DNA from: Echinarachnius parma
Lineage: Eukaryota > Echinodermata > Echinoidea > Clypeasteroida > Echinarachniidae
DNA: 64,000 nucleotides
Assembly: GCA_037951105.1 (NCBI GenBank)
Contig: JBAMJV010001409.1
Location: 62,001 to 126,000, forward strand
Direction: 5' to 3'
Both the position numbers and the translations under genes were made by a program. Below the pieces are notes generated by a model. The model saw only the letters and a list, made by a program, of their open reading frames with translations, searched no databases and was not told the origin of the DNA. Shown here piece by piece: positions 1,537 through 54,363 of the stretch (position 1 is its first letter; every line of letters begins with the position of its first letter).

Positions 1537-2808
1537 TTACAGATATTCGCTTAGAACGAGTTTAACAATATGGTACTGATACACCAAATCTAAAGTAAAG
1601 TGATGACCAGGTATTAGCAACATTATAATGCACACAGTTTCTTTTCCCATTTTATTACAGGATCGATCAAGTTTAAAGGTGTAATTCAATGGTAAGTCAC
1701 GCGGATCATCCTGCGGCTGCATCATAACTTTCTTCTCCTTGATGGACACTATGTTAAAGCTAGTCCCGATCTCCTCATAAGGCCTGCAATCATCCAGTGG
1801 CGATTGGACAGTGTCGTCAGTGCCATGATGTGCTCTTGGAGGATGATCTGATGTCTGGTGAAGTGGCCGTGGCAGATGAGTATGTTGCACATTTCCACGA
1901 TATACTCCCGAAGGACCACTGCTGACTGTGGGAGCATGGACACTTGGAACAGATAACATGGTCGGCTGTGGTGTCACGGAAGCCGTGTCTGTTGCTTCTA
2001 CTACAATTGATTGTCTGGTCCATCTCCTGAACATCCGTAGATTCTGGTTGTTGAAGCAAAGTTTTGCACTTTGGGTGCGCCTTCGCGCTGGAAGATAAAG
2101 CCCCGATACAATGCTGCACAGGAGTGCCAAAGATAGCGTGAGGATTCTGATTATGAAAACTATGTCCTTGGTTGTTAATGCTTGTCCGCATGAATTATTG
2201 ACAGATGGACGGACCGGACATGTCTCTCGTGAAGATTGAGACTGGTCTGTACCCGATGACAGCTCGGAAACAGTGGAAACAGTACTTGGTTTTATTCCGT
2301 CGCTCGTTTGCTCTGTAGTTTCAACATCATTTGTCGATGTTTCGGAAGACACGTTGTTACTGGCTGACGCTTCGAATTCTAGACTGGTAGTCTCTGTTTT
2401 TGTAAGGTTAAATGCGAGGTATCTGTCACCAGGGTCAACAGAAATGTAATATATACTGTAGTCACTTTCTTGTATAGGACCTTTGATACTGAAGGAAGCA
2501 CATTTCAATCCACAAAGTTCAAGTGTAAGATGCGGTACATGTTCGCGTACAGTGTCACACCATATGTAGCAATGTTTCGGACTGCAGCCTTGGGAGCCAC
2601 ATTCTCCAATTACCGTATCATCATATTGAATGACTTCTAATGCAGTTGATGGTGGCCAGTATTCATCCGTGATGCACTGAACAACAACACTCGTCCCATT
2701 CGTTTCTAGTTCATGTTGTCTCTCACATTGAAATAACAAGAAATAGCATGGCTGAACGAACAGAAACATAGAAAGAGTAGTAAACACAACATTTACAGCG
2801 TAAGCCAT
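1537..2808 (-). CDS. Receptor A: short-tail single-pass membrane protein
   Basis: The 423-residue reading frame begins at an ATG followed by a hydrophobic signal peptide (residues 1-26). The ectodomain (27-140) holds eight cysteines (28, 45, 70, 75, 80, 84, 99, 103) in the family pattern, N-glycosylation sequons and the motif L-E-L-C-G-L-K-C. A Ser/Thr-rich stalk (about 140-213) follows. The membrane segment spans about 215-239 and has Arg221 in its outer third, then a basic stop-transfer R-R-R. The tail carries P-L-D-D-C-R-P-Y-E-E-I at Tyr344; pYEEI is the classic Src-family SH2 ligand. The ectodomain is nearest subtype I. A role as cell-surface receptor is inferred from architecture only, and the ligand is unknown. 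The hydrophobic C-terminal end could be read-through of an unspliced intron. Confidence 0.8.
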   Translation of the reverse strand: MAYAVNVVFTTLSMFLFVQPCYFLLFQCERQHELETNGTSVVVQCITDEYWPPSTALEVIQYDDTVIGECGSQGCSPKHCYIWCDTVREHVPHLTLELCGLKCASFSIKGPIQESDYSIYYISVDPGDRYLAFNLTKTETTSLEFEASASNNVSSETSTNDVETTEQTSDGIKPSTVSTVSELSSGTDQSQSSRETCPVRPSVNNSCGQALTTKDIVFIIRILTLSLALLCSIVSGLYLPARRRTQSAKLCFNNQNLRMFRRWTRQSIVVEATDTASVTPQPTMLSVPSVHAPTVSSGPSGVYRGNVQHTHLPRPLHQTSDHPPRAHHGTDDTVQSPLDDCRPYEEIGTSFNIVSIKEKKVMMQPQDDPRDLPLNYTFKLDRSCNKMGKETVCIIMLLIPGHHFTLDLVYQYHIVKLVLSEYL

Positions 2809-2869
2809 CCCTTTTGATCGATATAGTGATGAGCCTTTTCTAACAGGACAATATTGTGTTTCAAAGCGT

Positions 2870-3000
2870 AATAAACTTTCTTTGTCAGAGACGCCGGTGT
2901 GTCAGTTATATTTTGGCCCGGTTGCTTCATCTGTCTTGTCGACTGCAAGGAAATCATGATGAAACGTAAAATAATCTAGACAAGTACGTAAATGTTGTTT
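2870..3000 (-). promoter_or_regulatory. Upstream region of gene A
   Basis: A diverged form of the box seen upstream of other members, around 2886-2900 on the plus strand (AGAGACGCCGG), sits about 85 bases 5' of the gene A ATG. Better preserved versions are at 3979, 20205 and 54448. The CCAAT core seen in those copies is not preserved here. Confidence 0.3.
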
Positions 3001-3428
3001 GCCAAAGGATTTCAGTGTCATCCAAATGACTGCCTAACCCATGACAAGTTTAGCTCGCTATCATCCTCTAGTTTCTGATGTATTGCATTCACTTTCGTAT
3101 CCGTGACAATTATAATTTTGGTTTCATTTATGGATTTGATTTGTAGGCCCTTTTACGCATGGGTTTGTTAACTAATGTATTGCACTTCAAAATTGGTCTG
3201 TTATTCTTCCAGTGTGTTTTGGTTTTGTAATAAAAATAATGATGTCCTTCAAGTGTTGAGCATGTTTTCTAAGTTTAAATGATTTGTGTTTATCTTCAAT
3301 TATCAATATATCATTGACAGATATTAAAGTGATCCATCAATTTTGTCAAACTCTACCAAAAGTACTTGGAATTTCTTTTGTACTGTTTTGTTTGGTTTAT
3401 GGTAACATAAGTATTATGGGTACTATGG

Positions 3429-5769: not shown

Positions 5770-5773
5770 TATA

Positions 5774-6619: not shown

Positions 6620-6726
6620 TTGCGCTAAGTCAGCCATAAACTGTTGGATAAATCTAATAATGTTCGCATACAAAATTGTATATATTACAATTAGAAATGG
6701 GTTTTAGTTTAATGTTAATTCAATTC

Positions 6727-6744: not shown

Positions 6745-6764
6745 TCCTCTGGAATGTTGAAAAC

Positions 6765-7061: not shown

Positions 7062-8570
7062 TACAAATATGCTCCTACGCCCATGTGTCCAGTTTCGCCT
7101 TGCACATACTCCAAGGCAGACGGAGAAATGATGCGACGAAATTGAAGTGAACAATTCATTTAAAGATGGAATAATAATAATAATAATGAAACATTTTTAT
7201 ATAGCGCATAACACATAAGCAAAATTGCATGTCTGTATGCGCTTTACAGAACAGAATACAAAAGGAATGAAATTGTGCACTGGGTTCATAATTATTAAAT
7301 GTTACGACATGTACAATTTAAACTAAACTATATTCCTAATGTCATTATGAAAATCAAAGCCATTGTTTTGGATTGCTCAATATTGTTATTCGGTGCACAT
7401 ACGAACACGCACCACACACATGGACACAACACATCAATTATTCACAGATTAAAGGAAGAAAATAACACAAAATACACTGTAGCAGTTCTGAAACGTTATA
7501 AATCTGTCAAGTTTTGAAAGTACATATAAATGTATTATATTATAATGAAATTCAGTGTTTATATTTAAGTAGGTTTAAACAATAGTCTGCAGTTCTTCTA
7601 GACACTCTATAATACACAATCATTAATTGCGTGCGTTGTACTACAATATATATGTATAATCAGCAATACTTTCACAACCTACAAACAAGCATATCTAGTT
7701 ATTACATTATTTATCAAATCGATCGAACAACAGACCATGGTATCAGTATGGAGCAACAGGTGGTGGGTTCGTAATGTTCTGTCTAATGCTATACATCTTA
7801 ATTATGATGTTTTCTCTATACATTCATTTGGTGCATCCATCTTATTTACAACCATCGGTGAATTAGTAGGTTATTACAAGATTATATTTGTAAAGTACTT
7901 TAACATTATCAACCTCGATCGACAAAAAGACAAGCGTAATTTGCATAAACATGAATAATCACGAGTTCAATTTTTTTTCATAATGACTTATTAACTCAAT
8001 GTCGTAGATTTAATGAACATGTTAAAACAAATCATGCCAAATTATGTAATTAATCATTATCACGATTGATTTGCTAATTGTACAAACTGTATATGAAATA
8101 TCAAGTTATTGCATGGATCACAGTGTAAATTGTGCAGCGCGACTATACCTAATAATAGTGAACATTCTAGCTATATTTTACTTTAACTTTCGTAGAGTCC
8201 ATGTAATACTGTGTACATTATATACAATCAAAACTGAAAATATTTGTATTAATAACCCAGTTTAAAATACAATAACAACAGTTTAATTATGTAATAATCT
8301 TTTAAATGTTTGTTTAGCAATTACTAGATAAAAAGATTAATGTCAAAAGACCTACAGGTCAATTTTCCGTTTTATTTCAGTAGGGTAGCTCTGTAAGTGA
8401 GCGAAGCACTGTTTTTGCAGAGGCCTTACAACATAATTTACAGGACATACATATACCAAGAAGTACAAATAGATATTTGTTTATATCAAAATATTCAACA
8501 TTGAAAGAATATTTTGTGACCAAATAACTAAATTATTATCAATAGTTATTTTTTAACATGCGCCAATATA
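7062..8570. other. AT-rich duplicated flank block
   Basis: No supportable gene. It holds a SINE-tail-like stretch (ATAATAATAATAATGAAACA followed by T-T-T-A-T-A-T-A-G-C-G-C) at 7170-7255. The rest resembles the AT-rich blocks at 13.4-13.9, 21.8-22.7, 27.6-28.0, 49.9-51.4 and 56.0-57.4 kb that accompany receptor units. Confidence 0.4.
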
Positions 8571-8572
8571 AG

Positions 8573-9345
8573 TTTGCCACAGCTAATATCAAGATAGTCA
8601 TTGTGAAAATTATGTCCCTTGGTGTTATTGGTTGTCCCAATTAAACCCGCGACTCCGGCTTTGTTATTGAATTGTTATTGAAAGCAGAAGGAACAAAGAC
8701 GACTAGAGATTCGTGCGACTTTGCTGGTGCAGTGCCTCTGTCTGAGATGAATTATACTTGTGGGGTCCAACCCGATATCGTAGGATAGAAGTTCTCAACA
8801 TCGGTCACGCGGATACAATCAGTGCTAAATAACGTATATGCGATATAGATAAAGATCTAATCTCAATGTAGTTTATTTGTATCATGTATGTTCGTACAGT
8901 ACAAATGTATCGATCGATATGGTATTGATACACCGTTTCTAAAGTAGAGTGATGACCAGGCATTAGAAACATCATAATGCAAGCTGTTTTTTTTCTCAAA
9001 ATTTATCAAAAGATCAATCAAGTTTAGATGTGAAATTAGATGGTAAGTAACGCGGATCATTCTGAGGCTGCATCATAACTTTCATCTCCTTGATGGACAC
9101 CAGATGAAAACTGGTCCCCATCTCTCCATATGGCGTGCACTCATCAAGTTGCGAATGTTTGGTGTCGAAGGTGCCACGGCATCCATGGGAGGCAGCTCCG
9201 GTGCATGGTGAAGTGACCGCGCCAAGTTCGGAAGTTGTACACTCACACTATCAACTCCCGAATTATCACCGGTGACAAGGGGAACATTGACACTTGGGTA
9301 AGATGAAATAATAGGCTGTGATGTCCCAGAAGCCGTATCTGCTGC
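8573..9345 (-). pseudogene. Receptor pseudogene fragments (long-type membrane segment and short-type tail)
   Basis: The minus strand near 8640-8573 encodes G-Q-P-I-T-P-R-D-I-I-F-T, like the start of the long-tail membrane segment (G-Q-L-I-T-P-R-D-I-V-F-I in gene E). From 9345 down to about 8800 the minus strand matches the short-tail cytoplasmic region, including the P-G-H-H-S-T-L-E-T-V-Y-Q-Y-H end. The 3' block with the Y-P-T-I-S codons follows near 8790-8690. Frames are broken and the ectodomain is absent. Confidence 0.65.
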
Positions 9346-10795
9346 TTCTTTTGATAGGCGAAAGAAACATGCTTGAAGTTCGGCAAATCCCTCCTTAATT
9401 CCAATGATTTCCGGAACTGGCTCCCAGAACAGAGACCAGATACTGGAAGGCAGTTACGTCGTCAAACAAATTTATATTCTATTGGTTGTAGGACAGAAAG
9501 GTATAGGTCCAGCCCTATTCCTTACATTGTGAGATGCTTGAATAAAAATACTAATTAGATACCTTAAAATCCCCATGTATATTGATGCATGTAATACATT
9601 AGACACGTAAGTTATGTACTATTATAATATACTGGTTTGATTTGATTATTGTGTTATAATTGTTCACGCACATAATTCCGATCTTTATTATGATGCTTCC
9701 TATCTTTATTATGATGCTTCCTTTGTGTGAGGCATTTGTGTATAATAACGGGCAATTATACTTTGATGGTAAAAATGCATTTATTCACCCTTACGAATTG
9801 TATTTGATAATTGATTTGGACAAACTAGTTATTACAGCGAGATACAGTACCTTATAATTGTACATTTAATACTTTTGCCTTTAAAAGTAAGTGTTGATTA
9901 TTATAAGCTATTGAACCAAACCAAAACACTCTTATTGAAATGCATTTGAATTCGCATTTTTGTGTACGAGTCTCAATTTACGGGTGATATCATTATATCC
10001 ATAATCCATGTAATTGAATAAAGTTAGTTAAGCCATTGAATGCAATACATTATGATTCATATATCATATTCTATTCGGATAATTAATTCTTACTAATTTC
10101 CAAGAATTGCTGCTAGTTTATGTAGTTTTGTATAAATCTTTAACTTGGTTAGTAAGTGTTATAAATATTAATTTATAAGTATTCTACATTTTATAATTTT
10201 TACTTTTAAATATTAAATTTGCATTAGAAAATCGAATTAATACACGATGCCTTAATATTATATTATGGGCTATTGTTAGTACTCATTTCATGTATCAATA
10301 TATATAACAACATTATTACTCACTGTCGTTGGTTAGTAATTACGGCTAATTCGTTATTCTATTAATGTGTGATTGAGCTATATTATGTAATTTTCGTAAA
10401 TGTTTAACTAGCCCAGTAAATGTTACAGCAGTCATAATGGTTTTAATGTTATCTTAAAATATATAATTTGCATTAGGAAATATAAATTGATACATGATGC
10501 CTATTGATTTTTGTAATCACTTAATTATTGATTAATCGATATACAAAATAATGATATAATTTATTGTCTTTCGTTAGTATTCATGCCTAATTTGTGATAC
10601 TATTCAGGTATATTATGATTTATTTCTCTAATTATTGTATATAATATATAAAGGTTTCTTTATACCTCGTGAGTTCATTAATGTTATTTCCATGTTTGTA
10701 AATATTGTTGCAAATGACACTGCAATTCAGCTTGTAGCTGTGAATGTGACATTTTGTTGAATAAAATACCATTATTATTATTCTACTGCATTTTA
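9346..10795. other. Very AT-rich spacer
   Basis: No gene, terminator or transposon recognised. Only short open frames without motifs, plus a direct CTTTATTATGATGCTTCCTA repeat near 9680-9722. Confidence 0.4.
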
Positions 10796-11060
10796 TTGTC
10801 TGGTCCATCGTCTGGTCGGCCGTAGATTTCAGTTGTTGACGCCCAGTTTTGCACTTCGTGGGCGTATTCGCGCTAGAAGATCCAGCCCCGATACGATGCT
10901 GCACAGAGGTGCCAGAGAAAGCGTTATGTTTCTCAATCATGAAAACCATGTCCTTGGTTGTGATTGCTTGTCCGCACGAACTCTCGACCGATGGTAGAAC
11001 TGTACATGTATAATTAGCTGTCTAGTATTGATCTGTAATGCACTGAACCACAATACTCAA
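10796..11060 (-). pseudogene. Receptor pseudogene fragment (short-type membrane segment)
   Basis: The minus strand encodes P-S-V-E-S-S-C-G-Q-A-I-T-T-K-D-M-V-F-M-I, matching the stalk/membrane junction of short-tail members. A one-base shift then moves the L-C-S-I-V-S-G motif into another frame. A piece resembling the N-terminal ectodomain coding sequence lies around 11020-11060, so this is a collapsed partial copy 3' of gene B. Confidence 0.6.
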
Positions 11061-11067: not shown

Positions 11068-12201
11068 CTAGTTCAGGATGTCTATAAAATTGAACATTTC
11101 TAACATTGATCGAACGTTCGCATTTCTTTGCGAGCGCAGTAATTCTGTCTGCGATGATTTATACTGGTGGGCTCCCGGCTGATATTGTAGGATGTTACCT
11201 GTTTGTTTAATACCAATGTTTTCTGCAGATTGATCAGCGTTATAAGTGCAGTTCAATGGTAAGTCATATGGGACATCCTGTGGCTGCACTATCCTTGTCT
11301 TCCCCTTGATTTCCACTGGGTTGAAGCTAGTCCCGATCTCCTCATAAGGCTTGCAATCATCTAGTGGCGATTGTTCAGTGTTGAAAGTATCACGACGTTC
11401 TCCGGGAGGCAGCTCCGGTGTCCGGTGGAGTGACAGTGCCAAGTTTGGTAGTTGGTCATTTCCACGATCAACTCGCGAGCGACCACCGGTGACATGGGAA
11501 TCACTGACGCTAGGGAAAGCTGAAATGGTCGGCTGTGGTATCACAGAAGCCGTTGTCTCTATTGTATTTGATTGGCTGGTACACCATCTGGCCAGGCGTT
11601 GTTTCCGGTTGTTTTTGCCCAGCTTTGCACTTGGGGTACACCATGTACGCCGTCGAGCTAGAAGATACAACCCCGATACGATGCTGCACAGAAGTGCCAC
11701 GGATAGTGTTAGGCTTCTGATTATAAAAACTATGTCCTTGGTGGATGTTAGGGAGGACTTGTTGTCACTTGCTGAGGCTTCTAGACGGGTAGTTTCTATG
11801 TTTGTAAGGTTAAATGCAAGGTATTTGTTAGCCGGGTGAATAGAAATATAGTACTCATCATAATCTTTTTCTTGTAGAGGATTATTGATACTGAAGGAAA
11901 AACATTTCAGACCACACAGTTCCAATGTGAAATGATTTGTATGTTCCTCTTTAAAGTTACAAAACGTGTAACAACTTCTCGGATTGCAGCCTAATTGTGA
12001 GTAACAGTACCCAATAGATTCGTCATGCCTTCGATTTATTGTGATGTTATCAGCCGCCTTCAAGAATTCATCGATAACACACTGTACATTGAGAGCAATT
12101 CCGTTCTTTTCAAGTTCATGATGTCTCTTGCAATCAAACGACAACGGAAAGCATGGCTGGATGACAAGAAACAACGACAATGCTGCTAATGACACATTCA
12201 T
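11068..12201 (-). CDS. Receptor B: short-tail, ectodomain subtype III, shortened stalk
   Basis: The chosen ATG at 12201 starts the signal peptide M-N-V-S-L-A-A-L; another ATG lies four codons upstream. The product is 377 residues. Signal peptide about 1-21. The ectodomain has cysteines at 24, 41, 66, 72, 77, 81, 96 and 100. The membrane segment (156-181) has Arg162, followed by A-R-R-R, and Y-E-E-I is at Tyr286. Unlike relatives the Ser/Thr stalk is nearly gone: T-S-T-K-D-I-V-F follows the ectodomain directly, a loss of about 50-75 residues. The frame reads into the conserved 3' block in a different frame (C-terminal residues 330-377), so the C-terminus is unlike other members. Ectodomain closest to gene G. 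Confidence 0.75.
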   Translation of the reverse strand: MNVSLAALSLFLVIQPCFPLSFDCKRHHELEKNGIALNVQCVIDEFLKAADNITINRRHDESIGYCYSQLGCNPRSCYTFCNFKEEHTNHFTLELCGLKCFSFSINNPLQEKDYDEYYISIHPANKYLAFNLTNIETTRLEASASDNKSSLTSTKDIVFIIRSLTLSVALLCSIVSGLYLLARRRTWCTPSAKLGKNNRKQRLARWCTSQSNTIETTASVIPQPTISAFPSVSDSHVTGGRSRVDRGNDQLPNLALSLHRTPELPPGERRDTFNTEQSPLDDCKPYEEIGTSFNPVEIKGKTRIVQPQDVPYDLPLNCTYNADQSAENIGIKQTGNILQYQPGAHQYKSSQTELLRSQRNANVRSMLEMFNFIDILN

Positions 12202-15691: not shown

Positions 15692-16996
15692 TCAATAGAA
15701 TATAAATCTATCCCTGATATATGTGTAAAGTACAAATTTACCGATATGGTAATGATGCACCGTATCTAGAGTGAATTGTCGAACATTTATTAGCAACATT
15801 ATAATGCAAGTTGTTTCTGTTCCAAATGTATCAAATGATCGATCAAGTTTAAAGGTGTAACTCGATGGCAAGTCACGCGGATCATCCTGTGGCTGCATCA
15901 TCACTTTCCTCTCCGATATGGACACTAGATTAAAGCAGGTCCGGGTCTCTTCATAGGGCGTGCAATCATCCAGCGGCGATTGGTCAGTGTCGTTCGTGCC
16001 ATAATGTGCTCTGGGAGGCAGCAGCTCTGATGTCTGCTGAAGTGGCCGTGGCAGATGTGTATGTTGCTCATTTCCATGATCAATTCCCGAACGGTCACTG
16101 GTAACTATGGGAGCATGGAAACTTGGAAGAGATAACATGGTCCTCTGTGGTGTCACAAAAGCCGTATCTGCTGTTTGTATTGTATTTGATTGTCTGGTCC
16201 ATCGTCTGGCCAGCAGTAGATTCCGGTTAGTGACGCCCAGTCCTACACTTCGTGTGCGTTTTCGCGCTAGAAGATACATCCCCGATACGATGCTGCACAG
16301 GAGCGCCACAGACAGTGTTAGATTTCTTATTATGAAAACTATGGCATTGGTTGACAAAGCTTGACCGCATGAACTCTCGACCGATGGTTGGATCCTACAT
16401 GTTTCTTGCGAGGATTGAGACTGTACTGTACTCGATGACAGCGCGGAAGCAGTGGATGTGTCCCCATTGCTGGTATGCCGTGTAGTTACAGGAAAGCGCT
16501 TTTCATTCGAGTCTGTCCTTGGTGTTAGGGAGGTCACATTGTCGTGGTCGTGATGTGAGACGCTGGTACTAGGGGACGATTCTTGACTGGTAGCCTCTGC
16601 TTCTGTAAGGTGTAAAGCTAGGTGTTTCTTGGTATCGAGAAAAATGTAGTATTCACCGTAATCAGCTTCTTGCAGATGTTTTATTATTCTGAAGGAAAAG
16701 CATTTCAGACCACAAAGTTCAAGTTTAAAGTGTTTTTTGTGTTCTATGTCAGTATTACACCATATGGAGCAATAAATAGAACTGCAAGTATTAGAACCAC
16801 AATTACCAATCGGTGTTTCATCAGATCGAATGAAATCGAATGTATCAGTTGCTGCCCAGTATTGATTTGTGGTGCAATGTACGCTTATATTCGTCCCATT
16901 TACTTCTAGTTCATGATGTCTTTCACATTGAAGTGACAAGAAAAAACAGGGCTGGACGAAAAGAAGCAAGGACACTATTGCCAACAGCACATCCAT
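15692..16996 (-). CDS. Receptor C: short-tail, ectodomain subtype I
   Basis: 434 residues. Signal peptide 1-21. The ectodomain has eight cysteines (24, 41, 66, 71, 76, 80, 95, 99) and the sequence A-D-Y-G-E-Y-Y-I-F, similar to the F-strand pattern of Ig domains but without the usual Cys. The Ser/Thr stalk (135-215) contains S-Q-S-S-Q-E-T-C. The membrane segment is about 219-244, with Arg224 in the outer part and A-R-K-R-T-R after it. The tail has P-L-D-D-C-T-P-Y-E-E-T at Tyr348, with Thr where others have Ile. The ectodomain shares W-x-x-x-D-T-F-x-x-I-R-S-D with pseudogene F, while the tail matches A and H. Upstream sequence also matches that of F (GATATTCCGTGC). Function as receptor is inferred. 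Confidence 0.8.
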   Translation of the reverse strand: MDVLLAIVSLLLFVQPCFFLSLQCERHHELEVNGTNISVHCTTNQYWAATDTFDFIRSDETPIGNCGSNTCSSIYCSIWCNTDIEHKKHFKLELCGLKCFSFRIIKHLQEADYGEYYIFLDTKKHLALHLTEAEATSQESSPSTSVSHHDHDNVTSLTPRTDSNEKRFPVTTRHTSNGDTSTASALSSSTVQSQSSQETCRIQPSVESSCGQALSTNAIVFIIRNLTLSVALLCSIVSGMYLLARKRTRSVGLGVTNRNLLLARRWTRQSNTIQTADTAFVTPQRTMLSLPSFHAPIVTSDRSGIDHGNEQHTHLPRPLQQTSELLPPRAHYGTNDTDQSPLDDCTPYEETRTCFNLVSISERKVMMQPQDDPRDLPSSYTFKLDRSFDTFGTETTCIIMLLINVRQFTLDTVHHYHIGKFVLYTYIRDRFIFY

Positions 16997-18397: not shown

Positions 18398-20093
18398 TCA
18401 TAATGAAGTCAGGCAATGACCAGGAACTACAATGCCAGCTACTTCTTTTTGCCAAATTGTAGTAAGTTGATCAGCATGCAAAGGCATACAAACATTCAGA
18501 TATTGTTTCTCCTTGATGTCTACTAGGTTTAAGCTGTTCCTTTCATATGACGTGCAATCATCCAGCGGTGATCGTCCGGTCTTAGAAGTGCAACGGCGAT
18601 CGAGTTGTTCATTCCCATAACCAACTCCCGAATGATCACATGTGACACGGGAGCATTGATATCTGGGAAAGATAATATGATCGGTCAAAGTGGCACTGAA
18701 AATGCTAAGGTCATGATATGTATTGCTTTAACTGTATTTTATTGTGACAGTCTGGACACATTGATCGTCTGTTCACCGGTAGATTCCCCTTGCTGACGCC
18801 CATTCTGGCACCGCGGGTTGGACTTCGCGCGAGAAGAAAACGGCCCGATACAATAATCATGCATAGGAGTGCCACAGATAGTATTATGCTTCTGATTATG
18901 AAAACTACATCCTTTACTGCCACTGCTTGACTGCCTGAACGCCCGACCGATGGATCGTCCTTACATGTTTCTTGTGAGGATTGAGGATGCGCCGCACCCG
19001 ATGAATGCCGCGAACCAGCGGATTGTGTTCCGTCGCTCGTATATCCTGTAGTTAGAATTAAATGTTTTTCATCAGAAACGTCAGCCGTTGATGTGTGTGA
19101 CGAGGTTACCTTATAGACTAAAGACTGCACCGTATCCGATGGCAGGACAGAAATAGCGGTTTGTGCTCGATCACTCGGATGTCCTGCAGCGACAGCAGCA
19201 CGCAATTCTTCAGAAGCACCCGTCGTCGATGTTTCCGAGAAAGCATACTGATATGTGATGTCTCGAGTTGACATTTCTTGACTGGGTGTCGAAGGTTTAG
19301 TAAGAACGCTAATGTTTAAAGGGATCTAGTAACTTTTTTGACATGTGCAAAAAGTTATGAATGGTTGATGCAATGTATATTGCTGTTATCTCATATGTCC
19401 ACATGGTATTGTGTGAAAATTTTAAGTCAAATGGACATTGCATGGCCAAGTAATGAGCGAAAATGCAAAGTGATATTCACTAACTCACTGCACTCACTTT
19501 GTACACGGTTTTAAAACTCCACCGGAGTTTTTCTTATATTACATATCTTTGTAACGAAAGGGAAATTTGAAAAACCGAAACCTGTCCCATGATTGTATTG
19601 TTAATACGAATACAACAAGGTATGAGGGAACCGCTAGAATACAAAAATTATTTTGAGGATTTGGACAATGTTACTAAGTCCCTTTAAGGCAAGTTTTTTG
19701 TAATTTCCATGATCGTAAGAAATGTAGTTTTCACCGCAATTGGTGTCTTACAGAGGACCTCTGATTATTACGGATAAACATTTCAGTCCACACAGTTCAA
19801 ATATGAAAAGATTTTCATGATTCTTTTCCACTCTACACCATGTGTAACACTTGTTTGGTTTGCAGCCTAACTGTGCATAACAATAAGCAATAATTTCATC
19901 TATGTCCCGCTCGTGTCGAATCAACTGGAAGTGACCAATCTCTAAGTATTCTTCATTCTTCGGCAAAACACTGGACATTGACACCTGTTCCGTTCGTTTC
20001 AAGTTCATGAAGTCTCTTGCAAACGACAACGAAACCATGGCTAGATGACAACAATGAATGACAATGATACCATCAATCTACATGATAAAGCCA
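18398..20093 (-). pseudogene. Receptor D: pseudogene broken by nonsense changes and a MITE
   Basis: Three pieces keep the family order. 20093-19688 holds a damaged signal peptide and an ectodomain with F-E-L-C-G-L-K-C-L-S-V-I-I-R-G-P-L then a TAA where relatives have an Arg-Asn pair. A TTAA-flanked insertion occupies 19316-19687, within the Leu-Ala/Leu-Asn codons that end the ectodomain. 19315-18711 holds a long Ser/Thr-rich stalk with S-S-Q-E-T-C and a membrane segment V-F-I-I-R-S-I-I-L-S-V-A-L-L containing the class-typical Arg. The tail (18688-18398, another frame) has P-L-D-D-C-T-S-Y-E-R instead of Y-E-E-I. A functional product is very unlikely. Confidence 0.8.
19316..19687 (-). mobile_element. 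TTAA-flanked MITE inserted in pseudogene D
   Basis: Bounded by TTAAAGGGATCTAGTAAC at the left and GTTACTAAGTCCCTTTAA at the right, which are inverted repeats with a one-base difference plus TTAA at each end. TTAA duplication is typical of piggyBac-type elements. 372 bases, no coding capacity; same family as 6240-6619. Confidence 0.75.
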
Positions 20094-23230: not shown

Positions 23231-23256
23231 ATAAACTAATATATAAAGATATCATA

Positions 23257-23953: not shown

Positions 23954-24364
23954 TTATTGCTGATCCATGTGTGGGTTCAGCAGCGCGTAGTCAGACGAGT
24001 CAAAGAACTCGTCCAGGTAAAGGTGGACCGGATCTCTGCGCGGGACCATGCCAGAGGACACTCTCCCGCTTGCTCCGCTGCTTGCCTGCGGTGCATCGCT
24101 CCCCTGCTGTACATAATCATGAATCGCCGATGAAAACAATGTCGGCTGCCTGAAGTCATTGCCGACGTCGTAACCACTTCTTGGAGCGGGAGTATCGCCC
24201 GAAAAGCAAGGAAGATGACTGTACTCAGTATCTGCTGACATCGCTTCGCTATTCTCTCCAGACTCGACATCAGAAGGAGCGTGGACGTCTGACAGGCTTG
24301 ATGCACTTGTGGGAGCGTCGCGTCCGTCTGCAATGCGAGCGGCTGGTTGATTCTCGCCCGACAT
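23954..24364 (-). CDS. Distal tyrosine-tail block of receptor E
   Basis: 136 codons from ATG, Ser/Asp-rich and disordered-looking. Motifs: T-E-Y-S-H-L at Tyr48, V-P-R-R-D-P near 110, and Y-L-D-E-F-F-D-S-S-D-Y-A-L-L-N-P ending M-D-Q-Q-stop. S-D-Y-A-L-L fits the ITIM consensus S-x-Y-x-x-L. The conserved end and its place about 120 bases beyond the E reading frame, as also seen 3' of F and G, indicate a second coding exon of the long-tail receptor. However, the position matching the G acceptor lacks AG here and no phase-matched donor is evident, so splicing is unproven. A separate small gene is the alternative. Confidence 0.6.
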   Translation of the reverse strand: MSGENQPAARIADGRDAPTSASSLSDVHAPSDVESGENSEAMSADTEYSHLPCFSGDTPAPRSGYDVGNDFRQPTLFSSAIHDYVQQGSDAPQASSGASGRVSSGMVPRRDPVHLYLDEFFDSSDYALLNPHMDQQ

Positions 24365-24488
24365 CGTAGGACAATTGTTTTAAAAAATGGTCACATAACT
24401 ACTTGAAAACGCCATGGCATCAAAGTGCTTTGTTCAATTAGCCATCTACGTATTTATCGACGTAATGGCTGTAAAATGTGTGTTGCAA

Positions 24489-26006
24489 TTACGAACTAAT
24501 ACTCGGTTTACATGTTGAGAAGGTAACATTGATTAGTAACATATTTGTATTAGTCCATAATTGACCATATATTGATAACAGCACAATGCAAACATTTTCT
24601 TTTCCAGAGGCTAGTATAAGATTATCGTAATCAGAATCGTCAACATCTCCAGGAAAGTATGAACACACGTTCTTCTCGACCTTTTTATACTGCATGCTTC
24701 TTTTCTTATCTGGTTTAGCATACAGGGCACTCAGGATATCATCATCGACTGTGTTGCATTCTACCGATAAATCGTCGACGGTTGAAGCTGGTAGGTTATG
24801 CGAGGTCCGATGACCACTGCCCTCGAGATCAGGGATGTCATTGTGTTTGTAATCATCTACCGTGCTGTATGTGTTCTCGTTCTGTAGGCCTCCACCGTCA
24901 GCACCACGTGCTGTAACTTCAATTGCTACTGAAGTCCCTTGTCCATTGACCTGGCCAATTTCAGGACGACCTCCGCGTGTAATGGGCACTAGATTCAAAC
25001 TGCCCCCACTCTCTTCATATGGTGAGCAATCATGGCCCAGGTCAGAAGTGCCGTTGTATGGCCTTGGAGGCAATGTCGGTGGTTGATGTTGATGAAGTGA
25101 CCAGGGCAAGTTTACATGACTTTCATTCCCACGAACACCTCCGGACTGATCATTGGTGGCAGAAAGAGCATTAACACTTGGGAAAGATGAAAGTGTCGGC
25201 TGTTGTGGCATAGAGATCATATCGATGGCATCCGTTGTGTTTGATCGTGTCAGGGCAACTGAAAGGTCCTGATGGTTGATGTTTAGTCTTTCATTTCTTT
25301 TACGCCCCAGAACAGTGGACAGGATTGCCACAGATAAGATTAAGATAGTGATTATGAAAACTATGTCTCTGGGTGTTATTAGTTGTCCGGCTGAGCCTTC
25401 GTTCGGTGGTTGGGTCGTACATGTTTCTTGCGAGGATTGAGGTTGTACCGAACCCGTTGTTAGCACGGAATCAGTGGATTGTGTTCCGCCATTCTTACGT
25501 CCGGTAATTACAGAAATACTTATTTCATCAGAAACAGTTGTATGCTGATCGATGTTGTCACTAGTGGAAAGTTCCTGACTGATTGTTGAAATTTCTGTAG
25601 GCTCGGTAAGGTTTAAGGCAAGGTTTGTGTATTCACCATGGTTGTAGGTAATATAGTATTCACCGTAATCAGTATTACGCAGAGGACCTTTGATAATGAA
25701 GGAAAAGCATTGTAGACCACAAAGCTCAAATGTGAAATGGCTATCATGTTCTATTTTGGCGTTACACCATATGTAGCAATTGCGCGGATCGCAGCCAAAT
25801 TCGGAACGGCAATTCCCAATAGATTCGTCTTCACTTCGATTGAATTGGATTATATCTGATGCATTCAAGTACTGATCGATAATACACTGTACATTGACAA
25901 CTGTTCCGTTCCATTCAAGTTCATGATGTCTCTTGCAATCAAACGAAAACGAAGAACATGGCTGGATCACGAGAAACAGTGACCAGACTGCCAGAAATAT
26001 ATCCAT
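24489..26006 (-). CDS. Receptor E: long-tail, ITIM-like, ectodomain subtype II
   Basis: ATG at 26006 is chosen because it begins the signal peptide M-D-I-F-L-A-V-W-S-L; 15 in-frame codons precede it. 505 residues. Ectodomain 22-135 with cysteines 24, 41, 66, 72, 77, 81, 96, 100 and N-T-D-Y-G-E-Y-Y-I. Ser/Thr stalk 136-212. The membrane segment 214-234 (I-V-F-I-I-T-I-L-I-L-S-V-A-I-L) has Thr where short-tail members have Arg. The tail has P-T-L-P-P-R-P-Y at 310 (class II SH3 ligand form), Y-E-E-S at 330, T-Y-S-T-V at 380, L-Y-A-K-P at 429 and S-D-Y-D-N-L at 460 (ITIM form, also YxN). Inhibitory-type signalling through SH2 phosphatases is inferred from motifs. The last about 35 residues may be intron read-through. 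Confidence 0.82.
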   Translation of the reverse strand: MDIFLAVWSLFLVIQPCSSFSFDCKRHHELEWNGTVVNVQCIIDQYLNASDIIQFNRSEDESIGNCRSEFGCDPRNCYIWCNAKIEHDSHFTFELCGLQCFSFIIKGPLRNTDYGEYYITYNHGEYTNLALNLTEPTEISTISQELSTSDNIDQHTTVSDEISISVITGRKNGGTQSTDSVLTTGSVQPQSSQETCTTQPPNEGSAGQLITPRDIVFIITILILSVAILSTVLGRKRNERLNINHQDLSVALTRSNTTDAIDMISMPQQPTLSSFPSVNALSATNDQSGGVRGNESHVNLPWSLHQHQPPTLPPRPYNGTSDLGHDCSPYEESGGSLNLVPITRGGRPEIGQVNGQGTSVAIEVTARGADGGGLQNENTYSTVDDYKHNDIPDLEGSGHRTSHNLPASTVDDLSVECNTVDDDILSALYAKPDKKRSMQYKKVEKNVCSYFPGDVDDSDYDNLILASGKENVCIVLLSIYGQLWTNTNMLLINVTFSTCKPSISS

Positions 26007-30892: not shown

Positions 30893-31091
30893 CGAAGGAT
30901 ATGAGTCTTAAAAGCCGGTCATCATAGGGATAGCTATATATTCCTAACTTAAGATGCTTGTGCATTATACACTTAAATATGTATCTATCAACATGATCGA
31001 CGAATGACAAGTTTAATACATTTGTACCGGTAGAAAAATGACATTCAGCTGACATTATGCCATGTAAACAGTCATTTCTTGCAAGAATATG

Positions 31092-31426
31092 TCAGGTGCA
31101 AAGTTGTCCAAATATTAGCCGGAAAGGGGAAATTTCTGTCTTGATCTTCCCACGCTGATCATCCCTTCTCTTCTCTGGTTTGGCATACAGAGCACTCAGG
31201 ATATCATCATCGACTGTGTTACAGTCTACCGATAGATCGTCGACGGTTGAAGTTGGTAGGTTATGCGAGATGCGATGACCACTGGACTCGAGACCAGGGA
31301 TGTCATTGCGCTTGCAATCATCCACCGTGGAGTAAGTGTTCTCATCATGCAGGCTTCCATCTTCTGCACAAAGTGTCGCAACATCAACTGCTATGGAAGT
31401 CCCTTGCTCACCGTCTTGGCCAATTA
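31092..31426 (-). pseudogene. Receptor F, 3' part (cytoplasmic tail)
   Basis: Continues the long-tail reading frame after the transposon: E-N-T-Y-S-T-V-D-D, G-H-R-I-S-H-N-L-P, then L-S-A-L-Y-A-K-P-E-K-R-R. Compared with G, the S-D-Y-D-D-L segment and the G-K-E-N-V-C-I end are deleted; K-T-E-I-S-P-F jumps to L-I-F-G-Q-L. Together with the 5' part at 36976-38044 this is one gene split by a 5.5 kb insertion. Confidence 0.8.
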
Positions 31427-31994
31427 CTCTCTTAATTTCTAGGACTTATTTTTAAGTCCAAAGGATTTATTTGTTTAAGTCCAAGTGGACTCAGGAGAGT
31501 GACAAAACCATAGGACTTAAAATCAATCTATCCTAAGACTTACAATTTTAAGTCCATGTAGGACTTAAATTTTAAGTCTATTGGATTTATAATTTAAATC
31601 TTTCACGACTACTTTTTAAAACTTCTTAGATTTATTTCTAAAATAAGTCCATCATGGATTTAAATATTAAAGTCTTGATTTTAAATCTTTCTTGGATTTA
31701 TTTCAAAATAAATCCATGATGGATTTATTTCAAAATAAATCCATGATGGATTTAAAAGAAAACACTTAAAAGAAAACGAGTTGATACACTTTTTCTGTTG
31801 GTGTAAATTTGTTTATTTCATCTAAATTGAAATGTACATTTATTTCACAATAATATAAATCAAAACATATAAAGAATCAATATAAACCCTGGACCTGTAC
31901 ATATATACAATTGAACAAAAAGTTCCTTTGACAAATTATATATACTGCTACAAGCCAACATAAATCAAATATAGCAACTGAACTTAGCGGAGTA

Positions 31995-36805: not shown

Positions 36806-36975
36806 TTGTGGGTAGTCTGATTGGCTTAAAGATTTAAGTCCCCATTAGATTTAGATTGCGAAGCCAAATTTCAATCGAAGGGTACAGGAGGCCCAATGAA
36901 ATAAGTCTTTAGGACTTAAAATATTTTAAGTCGTAAGAAAGACTTAAAATTTAAGTCCTAGAAATTAAGAGAGTA

Positions 36976-38044
36976 GAGGATAATGCAAGCGTGCAGTGGA
37001 CACTGGATTCAAGCTGGCTCCACTTTCCTCATATGGAGTGCAATCATCCAGCGACGATTGCCCCATGTCAGAAGTGCCATGGTAAGGTCTCGGAGGCAAC
37101 TCCGGTGCCTGATGATGAAGTGACCACGACAAGTTAGCCTGAGCATCATTCCCACGACCACCCCCAGCCAAAGCATTGGTGACAGAAAGAGCATTTACAC
37201 TCGGGAAAGATGAAAGTGCCGGCTGTCGTGGCATAGCAATCATATCGATAGCATCCGTTGTGTTTGATCGTGACAATGCAGCTGAAAGGCTCTGATGGTT
37301 TAGTCTTTCATTTTTTCAACGCGCTAAAACAGTGCACAGTGTTCCCACAGATAATATAAAGATAGTGATTAAAAAAATGTCCCTGGTTGTCACCGTTTTT
37401 CCGACTAAACATTCGTTCGAATATTGAGCCGTACATGTTACTTGTGAGGATTGAGACTGTATCGAGTCCGATGCCTGCACAGTGGATTGTGTTTTTTTCA
37501 TTCTTACGTCCTGCAGTTACAGAAAGATACCTTTCATCTTAATGACCGGTCGTTGAGGCTTCAGAGGTCGCATCGTAATGGTCGTGATGAAAGACGATTT
37601 TAATCGGTGACGTTTCTTGACTGATGGTTTCTGGTTTTACAAGGTTAAATACGCGGTATATGCTAGCAGGATAGACTACAATCGTATACTGACCGTAATC
37701 AATTTCTTGCAAAGGACCTTTGATTCTAAAGGAAAAACATTTCAGACCACATAGCTGAAGCGAAAAATGAGGGGTGTGTTTACCTTCAATTATACACCAA
37801 ATAGAGCTGCAAAATGTCGCGTCGCAAACGCCGTGGGAACCGCACTTCCCAATCGTCGTATTATCAGAACGAATCAATTCGAATGTATCGGCTGTTTTCC
37901 AGTAGTTATTCGTCGTGCAATGAACGGTTACATTCGTTCCATTCACTTCTAGTTCACTGTGACTCTCACAATCTCACAATCAACTGTTAAGAAATAGCAG
38001 GGCCGGGCGAAAAAAAAACAATGACACTATGGTTAATAGCCATG
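36976..38044 (-). pseudogene. Receptor F, 5' part (ectodomain, stalk, membrane segment)
   Basis: Long-tail member with subtype I ectodomain (N-G-T-N-V-T-V-H-C, D-T-F-E-L-I-R-S-D, L-C-G-L-K-C-F-S-F-R-I). The signal peptide is out of frame with a stop near 37983. A stop follows S-T-T-G-H near 37541. The stalk frame changes near 37510, and a stop follows V-L-A-R near 37315. The membrane segment lacks Arg (D-I-F-L-I-T-I-F-I-L-S-V). The tail keeps P-E-L-P-P-R-P-Y and P-Y-E-E-S before the 5.5 kb insertion. At least four disabling changes in addition to the insertion. Confidence 0.85.
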
Positions 38045-45040: not shown

Positions 45041-45044
45041 TCCC

Positions 45045-45475: not shown

Positions 45476-45759
45476 ATCCACCCATCTCACATGGTGTACC
45501 CGTAAACCGCACGTATTATATCAATATCATTGTAAAATACAATTTAAAGATTTGTGAAAGTTTTGTGAAGCAAACGAACACTGTTTACCTAGTGAAACAA
45601 ACGAATATTGAGTTCATATTTTATCACCGAATACTGATCGTCTATACCATTCATTGTCACAGGAATAATCAGCCATTTGAGATATTCGCACCCGTGTTTG
45701 TTTACAGACGTAGTACAGAATTAATGGAATTCGCGTGCAAAGTTCAATCTACGGAATGT

Positions 45760-46475: not shown

Positions 46476-47672
46476 TTATAGATATCCGTACAGTAAACAT
46501 TTACCGATATCATGGATATGGTATCGAGACACCATATGTGAAGTAAAGTGATGACCAGGTATCAGAAACATTATAATGCAAGCTGATTCTTCTCCAAATT
46601 TATCAAAGTCACAAGGATCTTCATGCGGCTGCATCGTCACTTTCTTCTCCTCGACGGACAAAAGATTAAAACTGGGCCCGATCTCCTCATAGGGCGTGCA
46701 ATCATCAAGCGGCGATTGGTCAGTGTCGTTAGTGATATGACGTGCTCTGGGAGGATGATCTGATGTCTGCTGAAGTGGACTATGTTGCGCATTTCCACGA
46801 TCAGCTCCCGAACGACCACTGGTAACTGTGGGAACATTGGCACGTGGGGAAGATGAAATAGTCGGCTGTGGTGTCCCGGAAGCTGTTATTTCTACTGCAT
46901 TTGATTGTCTGGTCCATCGTGTGGCCAGCCGTACAATCCGGTTATTGACGTCCAGTCGTGCACTTCGGGTGCGTTTGCGTGCTAGAAGATACAGCCCCAA
47001 TACGATGCTGCACAGGAGTGCCACAGATAGTGTTAGGAGTCTGACTATGAAAACTATGTCCTTGGTTGACATTGCTTGGGCGCATGAACTCTCGATAGAT
47101 GGACATGTTTCTTTTGAGGATTGAGGTTGTACCAAGCCCGATGTTAGCACGGAAACAGTGGATTGTGTTCCGCTATGCTTACGTCGAGTAGTTACAGAAA
47201 CACTTGTATGCTGATCGACGTTTTCACTAGTGGACAACTCTTGACTGATGGTTGACATTTCTATAGGCAGGGTAAGGTTTAATGCAAGATGTGTGTACTC
47301 CCCGTTGTTGTAAGTAATGTAGTATTCACCATAATCAGTATTACTCAGTTGACCATGGATAATGAAGGAAAAGCATTTCAGACCGCACAGTTCAAGTGTA
47401 AACTTATTTTTGTATTCATCTTTGACGGAACACCATATGAAACATCTGCTCGAATTGCAGCCGAAATCGGAAAGACAATTCCCAATACATTCGTCTTTAC
47501 TTCGATTGAATTGGATCGTATCTGATACATTCAAGTACTCATCGATGGTACACTGTACACTGACAACAGTTCCATGTCGTTCAAGTTCATGATGTCTCTT
47601 GCAATCAAACGAAAACGAAGAACATGGCTGGATCACGAGAAACAGTGACCAGACTGCCAGAAATATATCCAT
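46476..47672 (-). CDS. Receptor H: short-tail with subtype II ectodomain (chimeric)
   Basis: ATG at 47672 begins M-D-I-F-L-A-V-W-S-L, the same signal peptide and 5' flank as gene E; six in-frame codons precede it. 398 residues. Ectodomain 22-135 is nearly that of E (cysteines 24, 41, 66, 72, 77, 81, 96, 100, with an extra Cys62; N-T-D-Y-G-E-Y-Y-I-T-Y-N-N-G). From the stalk (S-S-K-E-T-C at 190) onward it is short-tail type: the membrane segment 205-231 has Arg211 and A-R-K-R-T-R follows, with P-L-D-D-C-T-P-Y-E-E-I at Tyr328. It looks like a recombinant between an E-like 5' half and an A/C-like 3' half. Expected to signal like A and C while binding what E binds; inference only. Confidence 0.82.
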   Translation of the reverse strand: MDIFLAVWSLFLVIQPCSSFSFDCKRHHELERHGTVVSVQCTIDEYLNVSDTIQFNRSKDECIGNCLSDFGCNSSRCFIWCSVKDEYKNKFTLELCGLKCFSFIIHGQLSNTDYGEYYITYNNGEYTHLALNLTLPIEMSTISQELSTSENVDQHTSVSVTTRRKHSGTQSTVSVLTSGLVQPQSSKETCPSIESSCAQAMSTKDIVFIVRLLTLSVALLCSIVLGLYLLARKRTRSARLDVNNRIVRLATRWTRQSNAVEITASGTPQPTISSSPRANVPTVTSGRSGADRGNAQHSPLQQTSDHPPRARHITNDTDQSPLDDCTPYEEIGPSFNLLSVEEKKVTMQPHEDPCDFDKFGEESACIIMFLIPGHHFTSHMVSRYHIHDIGKCLLYGYL

Positions 47673-52172: not shown

Positions 52173-52247
52173 TGTTGAATCACAGGAGTTCCCGGGGTTT
52201 CCATCCCCTTGACGCCACCCGAAGATGTCGCTGCTTTGATTATTCTG

Positions 52248-52699
52248 TTATTCCTGGTCCAGTTGTGGCCTCAGCAGCGCGTAGTCAGACGAATCCAGGA
52301 ACTCCTCCAGGTAATGTTGGCCTGGATCTCTGCGTGGGACTACACCCGCTGACACACTCCGGCTTGCTCCTCCACTTCCCCGAAATGCAACATTCCCCTG
52401 CTCTAGAGAAGCAGGAGTCGCCGATGAAAACTGGATTGGCTGCGTGACGTCAGTGTTGATGTCATCACTTCTTGGAGGAGAAATGTCATCTGCATAGCGA
52501 CGGAGATGACTGTAGCCAGAACTTCCTGAGAAGGCGCCGTCATTCTCTTCAGACTCTGATATAACGAGACGCATAGCGCTGGTCGGGTAGTCATCCCTGA
52601 CATCAGCTGCAGCGTGCAGTTCCGGTGGATTAGTGGCAGCTGCGCTTTTGCCTGCGATGGACGCTGCTGGGTTTCCAAACGACATCGTAGGATATGAGC
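52248..52699 (-). CDS. Distal tyrosine-tail block of receptor G
   Basis: A possible exon start at 52699 follows CTTTTCAG, and the frame reads S-Y-P-T-M-S-F-G-N-P onward for about 150 codons; the frame is open further upstream but diverges from its relatives there. It carries S-G-Y-S-H-L (ITIM form), V-V-P-R-R-D-P-G-Q-H-Y-L-E-E-F and L-D-S-S-D-Y-A-L-L-R-P-Q, ending D-Q-E-stop. Very similar to the block of F and alignable with that of E. Likely the C-terminal exon of the long-tail receptor; donor not identified in matching phase. Confidence 0.6.
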
Positions 52700-52881
52700 C
52701 TGAAAAGCCGGTCATCATCGAGGTTAATATTCCTAGCTTAAGATGTGCATTATACACTTCATAATTGATATATCTGTCGACATGATTGACGAATGACAAG
52801 TGTAACCCAATTGCGTCAGTAGAATCATGACATTTAGCTGGCATTGTGCCATGTTAACATGGTCTTTTCTTGCACAATATG

Positions 52882-54363
52882 TCAAGTCCATAGTTGACCA
52901 AATATTGGCCAAGGCATAATGCAAACATTTTCTTTTCCAAAGTTTGGTCTGAGATCGTCATAGTCGGAATCGTCAATATTTCCTGAAGAGAAAGGGAGAA
53001 TTTTTGTCTTGACCTTACCATGCTGCACACCCCTTCTCTTCTCTGGTTTGGCATACAGAGCACTCAGAATATCATCATCGACTGCATTGCACTCTACCGA
53101 CAGATCGGCGACGGTTGAAGTCGGTGGGTTATGCGAGGTCCGATGACCACTCGTCAAAAGGCCGGTGACTTCATTACGTTTGTAATCATCTACCGTGCTG
53201 TACGTGTTCTCATCATGTAGGCCTCCAACGTCAGCACCAAGTGTCGCAACATCAACTCCATTTGAAGTCACTTGCCCACTCTCTTGGCCAAACAGTGGAT
53301 AATGTAAGCGTGTAGTGGACGCTACATTTAAGTTGGCTCCGCATTCTGCATATGGAGTGCAATCATCCACCGACGATTGTCCCGTGTCAGAAGTGACGTG
53401 GCAAGGTCTTGGAGGCAGTTCCGGTGCCTGATGATGAATTGACCATGACAAATTAGCCTGAGCATCATTCCCACTACCACCTCCCGGAAAAGCGTTGGTG
53501 ACAGAAAGAGCACTTACACTTGGGAAAGCTGATGTCATCGGCTGTCGTGTCATGGAGGGCATATTGATATCATCTGTTGTATTTGATCGTGTCAGGGCAA
53601 CTGAAAGGTCCTGGTGATTGATAGTTTGTCTGTCACTCCTTTTGCGCGCCATAACAGTGCTCAAGATTGCCACCGATAATATCAAGATAGTAATTATGAA
53701 CGCTATGTCCCTGCTAGTCATTTCTAGACCATTACTTTCGACCGATGATTGGACAGTACACGTTGTTGGTGAGGATTGAGACTGTACCGTAACCGTTGGC
53801 GACACGGAAACAGTGGACATTGTCCAATTGCTCGTATTCATTTTTGTTGCAGGAGTGTGCATTTTTGAAGCACCTGTTGTTGATGTTTGGGAGGTCACAT
53901 TGTCGGGGTCGTGATTAGAGACCTTGGTACAAGGTGATGCTTCTTGACCGGTAGTCTCTGTTTCTGTAAGGTTTAATGCGAGGAATTTGTTAGCAGGATC
54001 GACAAAGATGTTGTATTCACTGTAATCAAGTTTTTGCAGTGGACGTTTGATACTAAGAGAAAAACATTTTAGCCCACACAGTTCAAATTTAAAATGATTC
54101 ATATGTTCCTTTTTGACGTTGCAAAATAAGCAACAATTGTTTGGATTGCAGCCTGTTTGGGAATGGCAATCCCCAATACCTCCGTCGGTCGTTCGAATTA
54201 ATTCGATGTCGTCATTTGCATTCAAGAATTCAGCCGCCATACACTGTACACTGACAGCAATACCGTCCGTTTCAAGATCCTGATTTCTCTTACATTCAAA
54301 CGACAACGGAAAACATGGCTGGATCACAAGAAACAGTGACAAAACTGCCATAAATGCATCCAT
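52882..54363 (-). CDS. Receptor G: long-tail, ITIM-like, ectodomain subtype III
   Basis: ATG at 54363 is chosen over the upstream in-frame ATG at 54609 because it starts the signal peptide M-D-A-F-M-A-V-L-S-L. 493 residues. Ectodomain 22-135 with cysteines 24, 41, 66, 72, 77, 78, 81, 96, 100, most like gene B. Thr-rich stalk 136-216. The membrane segment 219-238 is A-F-I-I-T-I-L-I-L-S-V-A-I-L with no charge, then A-R-K-R. Tail: P-E-L-P-P-R-P at 314, P-Y-A-E at 338 (replacing Y-E-E-I), T-Y-S-T-V at 388, L-Y-A-K-P at 437 and S-D-Y-D-D-L at 468 (ITIM form). Distal tail block 3' at 52248. Inhibitory-type signalling is inferred. Confidence 0.82.
   Translation of the reverse strand: MDAFMAVLSLFLVIQPCFPLSFECKRNQDLETDGIAVSVQCMAAEFLNANDDIELIRTTDGGIGDCHSQTGCNPNNCCLFCNVKKEHMNHFKFELCGLKCFSLSIKRPLQKLDYSEYNIFVDPANKFLALNLTETETTGQEASPCTKVSNHDPDNVTSQTSTTGASKMHTPATKMNTSNWTMSTVSVSPTVTVQSQSSPTTCTVQSSVESNGLEMTSRDIAFIITILILSVAILSTVMARKRSDRQTINHQDLSVALTRSNTTDDINMPSMTRQPMTSAFPSVSALSVTNAFPGGGSGNDAQANLSWSIHHQAPELPPRPCHVTSDTGQSSVDDCTPYAECGANLNVASTTRLHYPLFGQESGQVTSNGVDVATLGADVGGLHDENTYSTVDDYKRNEVTGLLTSGHRTSHNPPTSTVADLSVECNAVDDDILSALYAKPEKRRGVQHGKVKTKILPFSSGNIDDSDYDDLRPNFGKENVCIMPWPIFGQLWT

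Follow-up and report, generated by a model that had tools for sequence, protein, structure and literature searches.

Whether an invertebrate receptor family can carry the two-sided design of vertebrate paired receptors, one form signalling through a charged membrane residue and the other through tail tyrosines, is the question raised by a gene cluster of the echinoid Echinarachnius parma. Paired receptors with adaptor-coupled activating forms have been described mainly in vertebrates. The cluster lies in a stretch of 64,000 nucleotides, here called the window (positions 62,001 to 126,000 of contig JBAMJV010001409.1, or G000:C1408:62001-126000, in an assembly of 1.2 Gb), and all copy coordinates given below are window positions. 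The COX1 of this genome gives a correct reading when AAA is taken as Asn and AGA as Ser (code 9: FPRMNNMSFW), as in an echinoderm or, with lower likelihood, another animal with this code, and the COX1 protein looks most like that of a sea urchin. The window holds eight receptor copies, all on the minus strand; the first-exon open reading frame (ORF) is intact, Met to stop, in six of them (A, B, C, E, G and H) and broken in two (D and F). A preliminary description of this DNA had divided the copies into short-tail forms with an arginine (Arg) in the membrane segment, and long-tail forms with motifs similar to the immunoreceptor tyrosine-based inhibitory motif (ITIM), and had proposed the two-sided design for them. 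From the analysis of these and further copies of the genome, the cluster probably represents an echinoderm paired-receptor family, with two ancient membrane-plus-tail cassettes that share ectodomains and that would have opposite signalling roles. The proposal is supported by the restriction of the Arg and of the tail types to their classes, by a predicted V-set ectodomain, by repeated sharing of the ectodomains, and by the occurrence of both classes in two diverged subfamilies.

Six-frame searches of the genome gave 91 matches with E and 102 with C as the query; these lists overlap and seem to hold both haplotypes, and the two figures are lower bounds. Part of the matches was fetched (20 loci, followed by sets of 20, 17 and 12 stretches), namely the highest-ranking matches, those of short type and some distant ones; since this sample is non-random, class proportions are no census. 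One alignment was made of 74 ORFs, fetched and from the window, of which 72 were counted, 49 long and 23 short. Left out were L045, a truncated long form with threonine (Thr) at the membrane column discussed below, and L040_2, an ORF that does not belong to the family. Classes were assigned on the alignment from the tail block, independently of the membrane residue; this replaced an earlier classing by regular expressions, which was too strict. The counted rows include near-identical allelic copies, e.g., L063/L064, L042/L043 and G/L031.

The Arg at a fixed column of the membrane segment was seen in all five short-type copies for which it had been described (A, B, C, H and pseudogene D), and the long forms E, G and F, read before as having Thr or Ile at this place, all have Thr. 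Of the 23 short forms counted, 22 have a basic residue at this column (Arg in 21, Lys in L053) and one, L055, has Ile; none of the 49 long forms is basic there, the residue being Thr (35), Ile (9), Ala (4) or Val (1); the Fisher p value for this difference is about 1e-17 if relatedness is ignored. Two distant long ORFs fetched but kept outside the alignment (L073 and L076) have, by eye, no basic residue there either. The preliminary description had also looked to further copies for conservation of the Arg and the tyrosines, and both were found, Arg in 21 of 23 short forms and tyrosines of the YSTV/YCTV and YAKP types in 49 of 49 long forms. It had warned as well that the short forms have about six extra residues after the Arg, which could place it at the outer membrane edge. 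The difference in length is real in the main clade, where the short-form helix is six residues longer than that of the long forms; as an explanation of the Arg, it is weakened by ten distant long forms, eight of which have a full-length helix (that of L068 falls short by one residue, and in L077 the inner part of the helix contains Arg-Lys). Ile or Val occupies the column throughout these ten, whereas the distant short forms L063, L064 and L065 have Arg. Because full-length helices without a basic column residue are found in distant long forms, and Arg in distant short forms, Arg tracks class and not helix length. A crude hydropathy scan, with simplified ad hoc weights that cannot place the Arg, put the helix after this residue in B and C and across it in A, D and H. 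A cysteine no more than 14 residues away from the helix was seen in 21 of the 23 short forms, compared with 5 of 49 long forms, and the extra juxtamembrane Cys of the short forms is a candidate for a disulfide-linked dimer. This extra stalk Cys lies about eight residues before the helix in all main-clade short forms (e.g., A, C, H and L049-L062) except the stalkless B; a Cys at a distance of no more than 14 residues occurs in the close long forms L025 and L030 too.

The tails also separate the classes. For the short tail, described before as Y-E-E-[I/T/R] only, the copies A, B and H have YEEI, C has YEET, and pseudogene D has YER. The Tyr position shared by both tails is occupied by Tyr in 20 of 23 short forms (by Asn or Cys in L063, L064 and L065), and Ile stands at +3 in 22 of the 23, versus 0 of 49 long forms; YEEI matches the Src-family SH2 ligand. 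In E and G the motifs SDYD[N/D]L, YSTV, YAKP and SDYALL are at the places reported for them. The tyrosine of the SDYDDL site is retained in 46 of 49 long forms, and the site matches the ITIM consensus in 45. It follows that the term ITIM-like suits this site and SDYALL, which also fits the consensus, but not the YSTV and YAKP sites, which fit it in 0 of 49; the latter fits a Crk YxxP site. LPPR, a stretch similar to an SH3 ligand, is present in 48 of the 49 long forms, compared with 7 of 23 short ones. SDYALL itself lies in a second open frame, past a gap after the first-exon ORF, and such a frame follows in 37 of 39 long copies for which the sequence continues beyond the ORF for more than 1.2 kb; ten distant long copies, with too little sequence, are outside this count. 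The second frame is shortened or shifted in a few of the 37 (such as L013, L036 and L048), and an additional mid-frame SxYxxL occurs in 15 of 30 second frames.

The sharing of ectodomains between the classes was approached with two trees of 63 rows (21 short and 42 long), obtained after four near-copies and five incomplete ectodomains were dropped from the 72; the membrane-plus-tail tree was built without the Arg column, and both trees have few columns and leave many forks open. On the membrane-plus-tail tree the class label takes one change (support 85, unstarred), while on the ectodomain tree it takes 20, as many as shuffled labels do (mean 17.8), and short forms as a single group on this second tree are rejected by the approximately unbiased test (p-AU 1.1e-7). 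Likewise, the best membrane-plus-tail match of every short form (23/23) is another short form; the nearest ectodomain, compared as DNA, is that of a long form for 14 of them, a tie for one and a short form for eight, two of which (L063 and L064) are near-copies of each other. Sharp breakpoints are seen in cross-class pairs: L058 and L015 share 96-100% identity up to codon 180 and 43-83% thereafter, and L050 and L041 share 95-100% over codons 24-183 and then 43-75%. Over the ectodomain, two cross-class pairs are nearly identical (99% and 98%). Similar ectodomains on different membrane and tail parts, as expected of paired receptors, are thus found both in the conflict between the trees and in the cross-class pairs.

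A full receptor is predicted to comprise a signal peptide, a single divergent V-set immunoglobulin domain, a Ser/Thr-rich stalk (absent from B) and one membrane helix. The ectodomain is predicted to have the V-set fold; a first structure model, made from seven window sequences, was poor (predicted local distance difference test, pLDDT, 40) and was set aside. The canonical F-strand Cys (DxGxYxC) is missing, the consensus at this place being D-Y-G-E-Y-Y-I, and Cys is fully or almost fully conserved at seven other columns. The hidden Markov model searches called for earlier gave no Pfam family at cut-off, and no sushi or C2 domain at E 1, in eight window ORFs, and Pfam V-set was absent from the matches of 39 of 39 family ectodomains at E 10. 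No match was obtained in a protein-database search with full-length E or in a PDB sequence search with one window ectodomain, and a scan of viral contigs revealed no relative. A PDB search with the ectodomain profile returned only antibody heavy chains, from E 0.0048, with piecemeal alignments that were not used as evidence. The relatives P0001-P0009, in public contigs, were reached by the ectodomain profile only; P0004 scores 17.7 bits with Pfam V-set, under the 26-bit cut-off. Several of these distant relatives have a Trp-bearing C strand (WWRK or similar), and P0008 has a stalk and an uncharged membrane helix, without an SxYxxL tail.

Selection was estimated with NG86 pairwise averages (ratio of sums) over related copies, which are not site tests. 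The ratio of nonsynonymous to synonymous change (dN/dS) was 0.27 for the short helix, 0.37 for the long helix, 0.43-0.48 for the ectodomains, 0.41-0.51 for the long tail, 0.65 for the second frame and 0.74-0.85 for the stalks. For the short tail it was 0.59 in the distal part and 0.56 from YEEI to a possible splice site, with 0.83 for the read-through beyond it. Synonymous change at the Arg codon is too rare to weigh, because nearly all these codons are AGA (AGA 20, AGG 1).

From these features a mechanism can be proposed. The long cassette, with its uncharged key column, LPPR stretch and conserved tyrosines, including SxYxxL sites that fit the ITIM consensus, would act as an inhibitor by recruiting an SH2 phosphatase. 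The short cassette, with a conserved Arg near the outer helix end and a YEEI tail, would pair with an adaptor of the immunoreceptor tyrosine-based activation motif (ITAM) type with an acidic membrane residue, and activate. Gene conversion or recombination has, in this model, repeatedly shifted ectodomains between the cassettes; because of these repeated moves, both outputs would be present on closely similar binding domains, possibly in an immune role. On the inhibitory side, the genome has an SHP-2-type phosphatase on contig C2244, with SH2 exons and a phosphatase exon in order, and its N-SH2 piece matches PTPN11 at 3.4e-43. For an SH2 on contig C2501 the scores with SHP-2 and with ZAP-70/SYK are similar, and no claim for Syk is made from it. 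Contig C3546 of this genome has SH2 exons at 66.7 and 78.2 kb (the second with RasGAP as its best match), in addition to a receptor cluster at 134-160 kb.

Several results weigh against this interpretation. The search for ITAM adaptors gave at best 20.1 bits with Pfam TCR_zetazeta (cut-off 25 bits), and the Pfam models of ITAM and DAP10 had zero matches in the genome; no control genome gave a match either, and these models are taken to be vertebrate-built. Among the 12 sub-threshold TCR_zetazeta matches, six places in five loci were read and discarded, five being copies of one repeat and the sixth having a helix without an acidic residue. The Ile of L055 is an exception among the short forms, and the short cassette seems to form a single old lineage, so that the 22 of 23 count as one event kept and not as independent gains. 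About 20 mostly apolar residues extend from the Arg to the inner basic cluster, so that the Arg lies further out than in the human partners of FcR-gamma, and four of the ten distant long forms (L070, L072, L074 and L075) have a Lys two positions further out. The proximal short tail is weakly constrained (dN/dS 0.68), SDYALL was not found downstream of L022 and L026, in spite of more than 1.2 kb of sequence, and the junction between exons 1 and 2 lacks uniform canonical splice signals, with a GTCA that recurs at one phase-1 position (37 of 48 long copies) and a variable acceptor. An Arg near the outer helix end is, according to a passage of PMC2413239, also a feature of the FcR-gamma partners, with NxxR at the helix N-terminus. 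As a separate observation, the outward Lys of L070, L072, L074 and L075 is combined with a tyrosine-rich tail, resembling a bifunctional receptor.

These points give room to other explanations. The short forms could signal by themselves, the YEEI tail binding a Src-type kinase and the Arg merely anchoring the helix, in which case the classes would differ in the SH2 protein bound and no adaptor would be needed. The +3 Ile, the retention of the Tyr and the adaptor searches without a match above cut-off agree with this idea, which we nevertheless hold to be unlikely, since it leaves unexplained both the class-exclusive Arg and the most constrained helix, and the distant L063, L064 and L065 keep the Arg without the Tyr. 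It is also conceivable that the Arg only shows where the helix ends on the outside, the short-form helix being longer by six residues on the inside, and that the short forms act as decoys without signalling or arose from long forms by truncation: Arg and the length difference coincide in the main clade, the short forms of the window hold decayed remnants of the long-form second frame, and the hydropathy scan puts the helix past the Arg in B and C, if not in A, D and H. The full-length helices of eight distant long forms without a basic column residue, the Arg of the distant short forms, the Lys that replaces it in L053, and the purifying selection on the short helix and on the tail up to the possible splice site make this quite improbable.

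The polarity might also be reversed or mixed, with long forms activating through their tyrosines (via, e.g., Syk-, Src- or Crk-type SH2 proteins) and short forms competing for ligand. The non-ITIM tyrosines of YAKP and YSTV are as conserved as the one that fits the ITIM consensus, and LPPR is nearly constant in long forms; against this, SxYxxL sites recur in the long tail, and the Arg of the partner class would then require another explanation, so that we give this possibility a little less credence still. Adaptor-coupled short forms facing inhibitory long forms remain our preferred reading.

The comparison with known systems relies on passages of the papers cited. Receptor pairing in invertebrates has already been suggested (PMC2413239), and tails with ITIM or ITAM have been reported in Botryllus, Hydractinia and oyster (PMC12065747, PMC11999971). 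Like the present family, the NITR of teleosts are clustered, diversified V-domain type I receptors, most of them inhibitory with ITIMs, while the few activating members lack an ITIM and have an Arg in the membrane segment; they differ in that the V domain has a J or J-like stretch or is followed by a second I domain, and they are held to be restricted to bony fish (PMC2442602). The J-like FGxG of NITR occurs in 0 of 72 ORFs here, and activating NITR are few, 3 of 44 in medaka (PMC2442602), compared with 23 of 72 in our non-random sample. LILR/PIR, FcalphaRI, GPVI, NKp46 and Xenopus XFL resemble this family in that short-tail forms carry an Arg where the helix begins on its outer (N-terminal) side, forms with tyrosine-motif tails have an uncharged helix, and ectodomains are paired; however, the LILR/XFL-type helix has NxxR where FxxR is found in 23 of 23 short forms, the immunoglobulin domains are different, and FcR-gamma is their known partner (PMC2413239), while the Pfam adaptor models found none here. 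In Siglec-11 and Siglec-16, inhibitory and activating ectodomain exons, the V-set included, are also kept alike by repeated gene conversion, but in one primate pair (PMC5701461) and not through many exchanges in a large family. The fester family of Botryllus and its co-receptors likewise belong to an invertebrate multigene family of the immunoglobulin superfamily (IgSF), whose tails are of ITIM and activating types (PMC12065747). The co-receptors combine a V and a sushi domain with two C2 domains, in contrast to the one predicted V followed by a stalk in the ORFs read here; the activating-type forms have a hemITAM or core motif of their own, and the words "charged" and "arginine" are absent from the main text of PMC12065747. 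Hydractinia Alr and oyster CgIgIT2 are also invertebrate receptors, of the IgSF or of allorecognition, that contain ITIM or ITAM motifs, and the passages of PMC12065747 and PMC11999971 on them mention neither a membrane Arg nor matched ectodomain pairs. No invertebrate family that combines a membrane Arg exclusive to one class with matched ectodomains, and no report of this family or of an echinoderm membrane-Arg paired system, was found among the titles and abstract openings searched, a scope that excluded most subscription papers.

Receptor copies, remnants and second open frames of the cluster (window positions).
Feature	Position	Strand	Remarks
Short-tail receptor A	1537..2808	-	intact ORF from Met to stop, 423 aa; membrane Arg codon 2148-2146; YEEI 1779-1768
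Short-type pseudogene remnant (TPYGEMGTSF...KVMMQPQ)	8500..9453	-	second frame decayed
Remnant adjoining B	10632..11021	-	stalk and membrane segment of another short-type copy
Short-tail receptor B	11068..12201	-	intact ORF, 377 aa, without stalk; membrane Arg 11718-11716; YEEI 11346
Short-tail receptor C	15692..16996	-	intact ORF, 434 aa; membrane Arg 16327-16325; YEET 15955
Short-tail pseudogene D	18398..20077	-	membrane Arg 18893-18891; tail YER
Second open frame of E	23954..24379	-	ends in SDYALL (23995-23978)
Long-tail receptor E, first exon	24489..26006	-	ORF 505 aa; membrane Thr 25349-25347; YSTV 24869, YAKP 24722, SDYDNL 24635
Long-tail pseudogene F, 3' part	30449..31445	-	distal tail: YSTV 31334, YAKP 31187; SDYALL frame 30490
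Long-tail pseudogene F, 5' part	36965..37973	-	ectodomain, membrane segment with Thr, proximal tail
Short-tail receptor H	46476..47672	-	intact ORF, 398 aa; membrane Arg 47042-47040; YEEI 46691
Second open frame of G	52248..52853	-	ends in SDYALL (52289)
Long-tail receptor G, first exon	52882..54363	-	ORF 493 aa; membrane Thr; YSTV 53202, YAKP 53055, SDYDDL 52968
Short-type pseudogene remnant	60200..61200	-	YEEIGTSFNLV 60843; decayed second frame still with SDYDLL 60293

The last remnant lies beyond the interval covered by the preliminary description (1537..54363). Decayed pieces of the second frame are retained in the short-type copies A, C and H, and in the remnants at about 8.5-9.45 and 60.2-61.2 kb. 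The two parts of pseudogene F are separated by about 5.5 kb of other sequence. Between this pseudogene and H there is an ORF of 1044 aa (43818-40684, minus strand) with PHD-like, endonuclease-like and reverse-transcriptase-like parts, which we take to be a CR1-like long interspersed nuclear element, and an ORF1-like piece lies upstream of it (44569-44162, minus strand). Two tandem repeats were also noted, one of two perfect copies of 244 bases at 22743-23231, very recent or an effect of the assembly, and one array of 104 bases at 45121-45477, made of 22-base units with CAGTCCTTTCTAGGACT.

Taken as a statement on evolution, we lean towards the view that an echinoderm lineage independently evolved a large single-V-set paired repertoire, in which Arg/adaptor and ITIM cassettes often traded ectodomains. 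If this is true, the logic of vertebrate-style natural killer receptors is an invertebrate invention as well, and matched ectodomains on opposite cassettes in an echinoderm would show the same solution arising outside the vertebrates. The predictions are specific: a single Arg, a single class of adaptor and named tyrosines. The family would also offer a non-vertebrate system for asking if the pressure behind ectodomain exchange comes from pathogen decoys or self-ligands.

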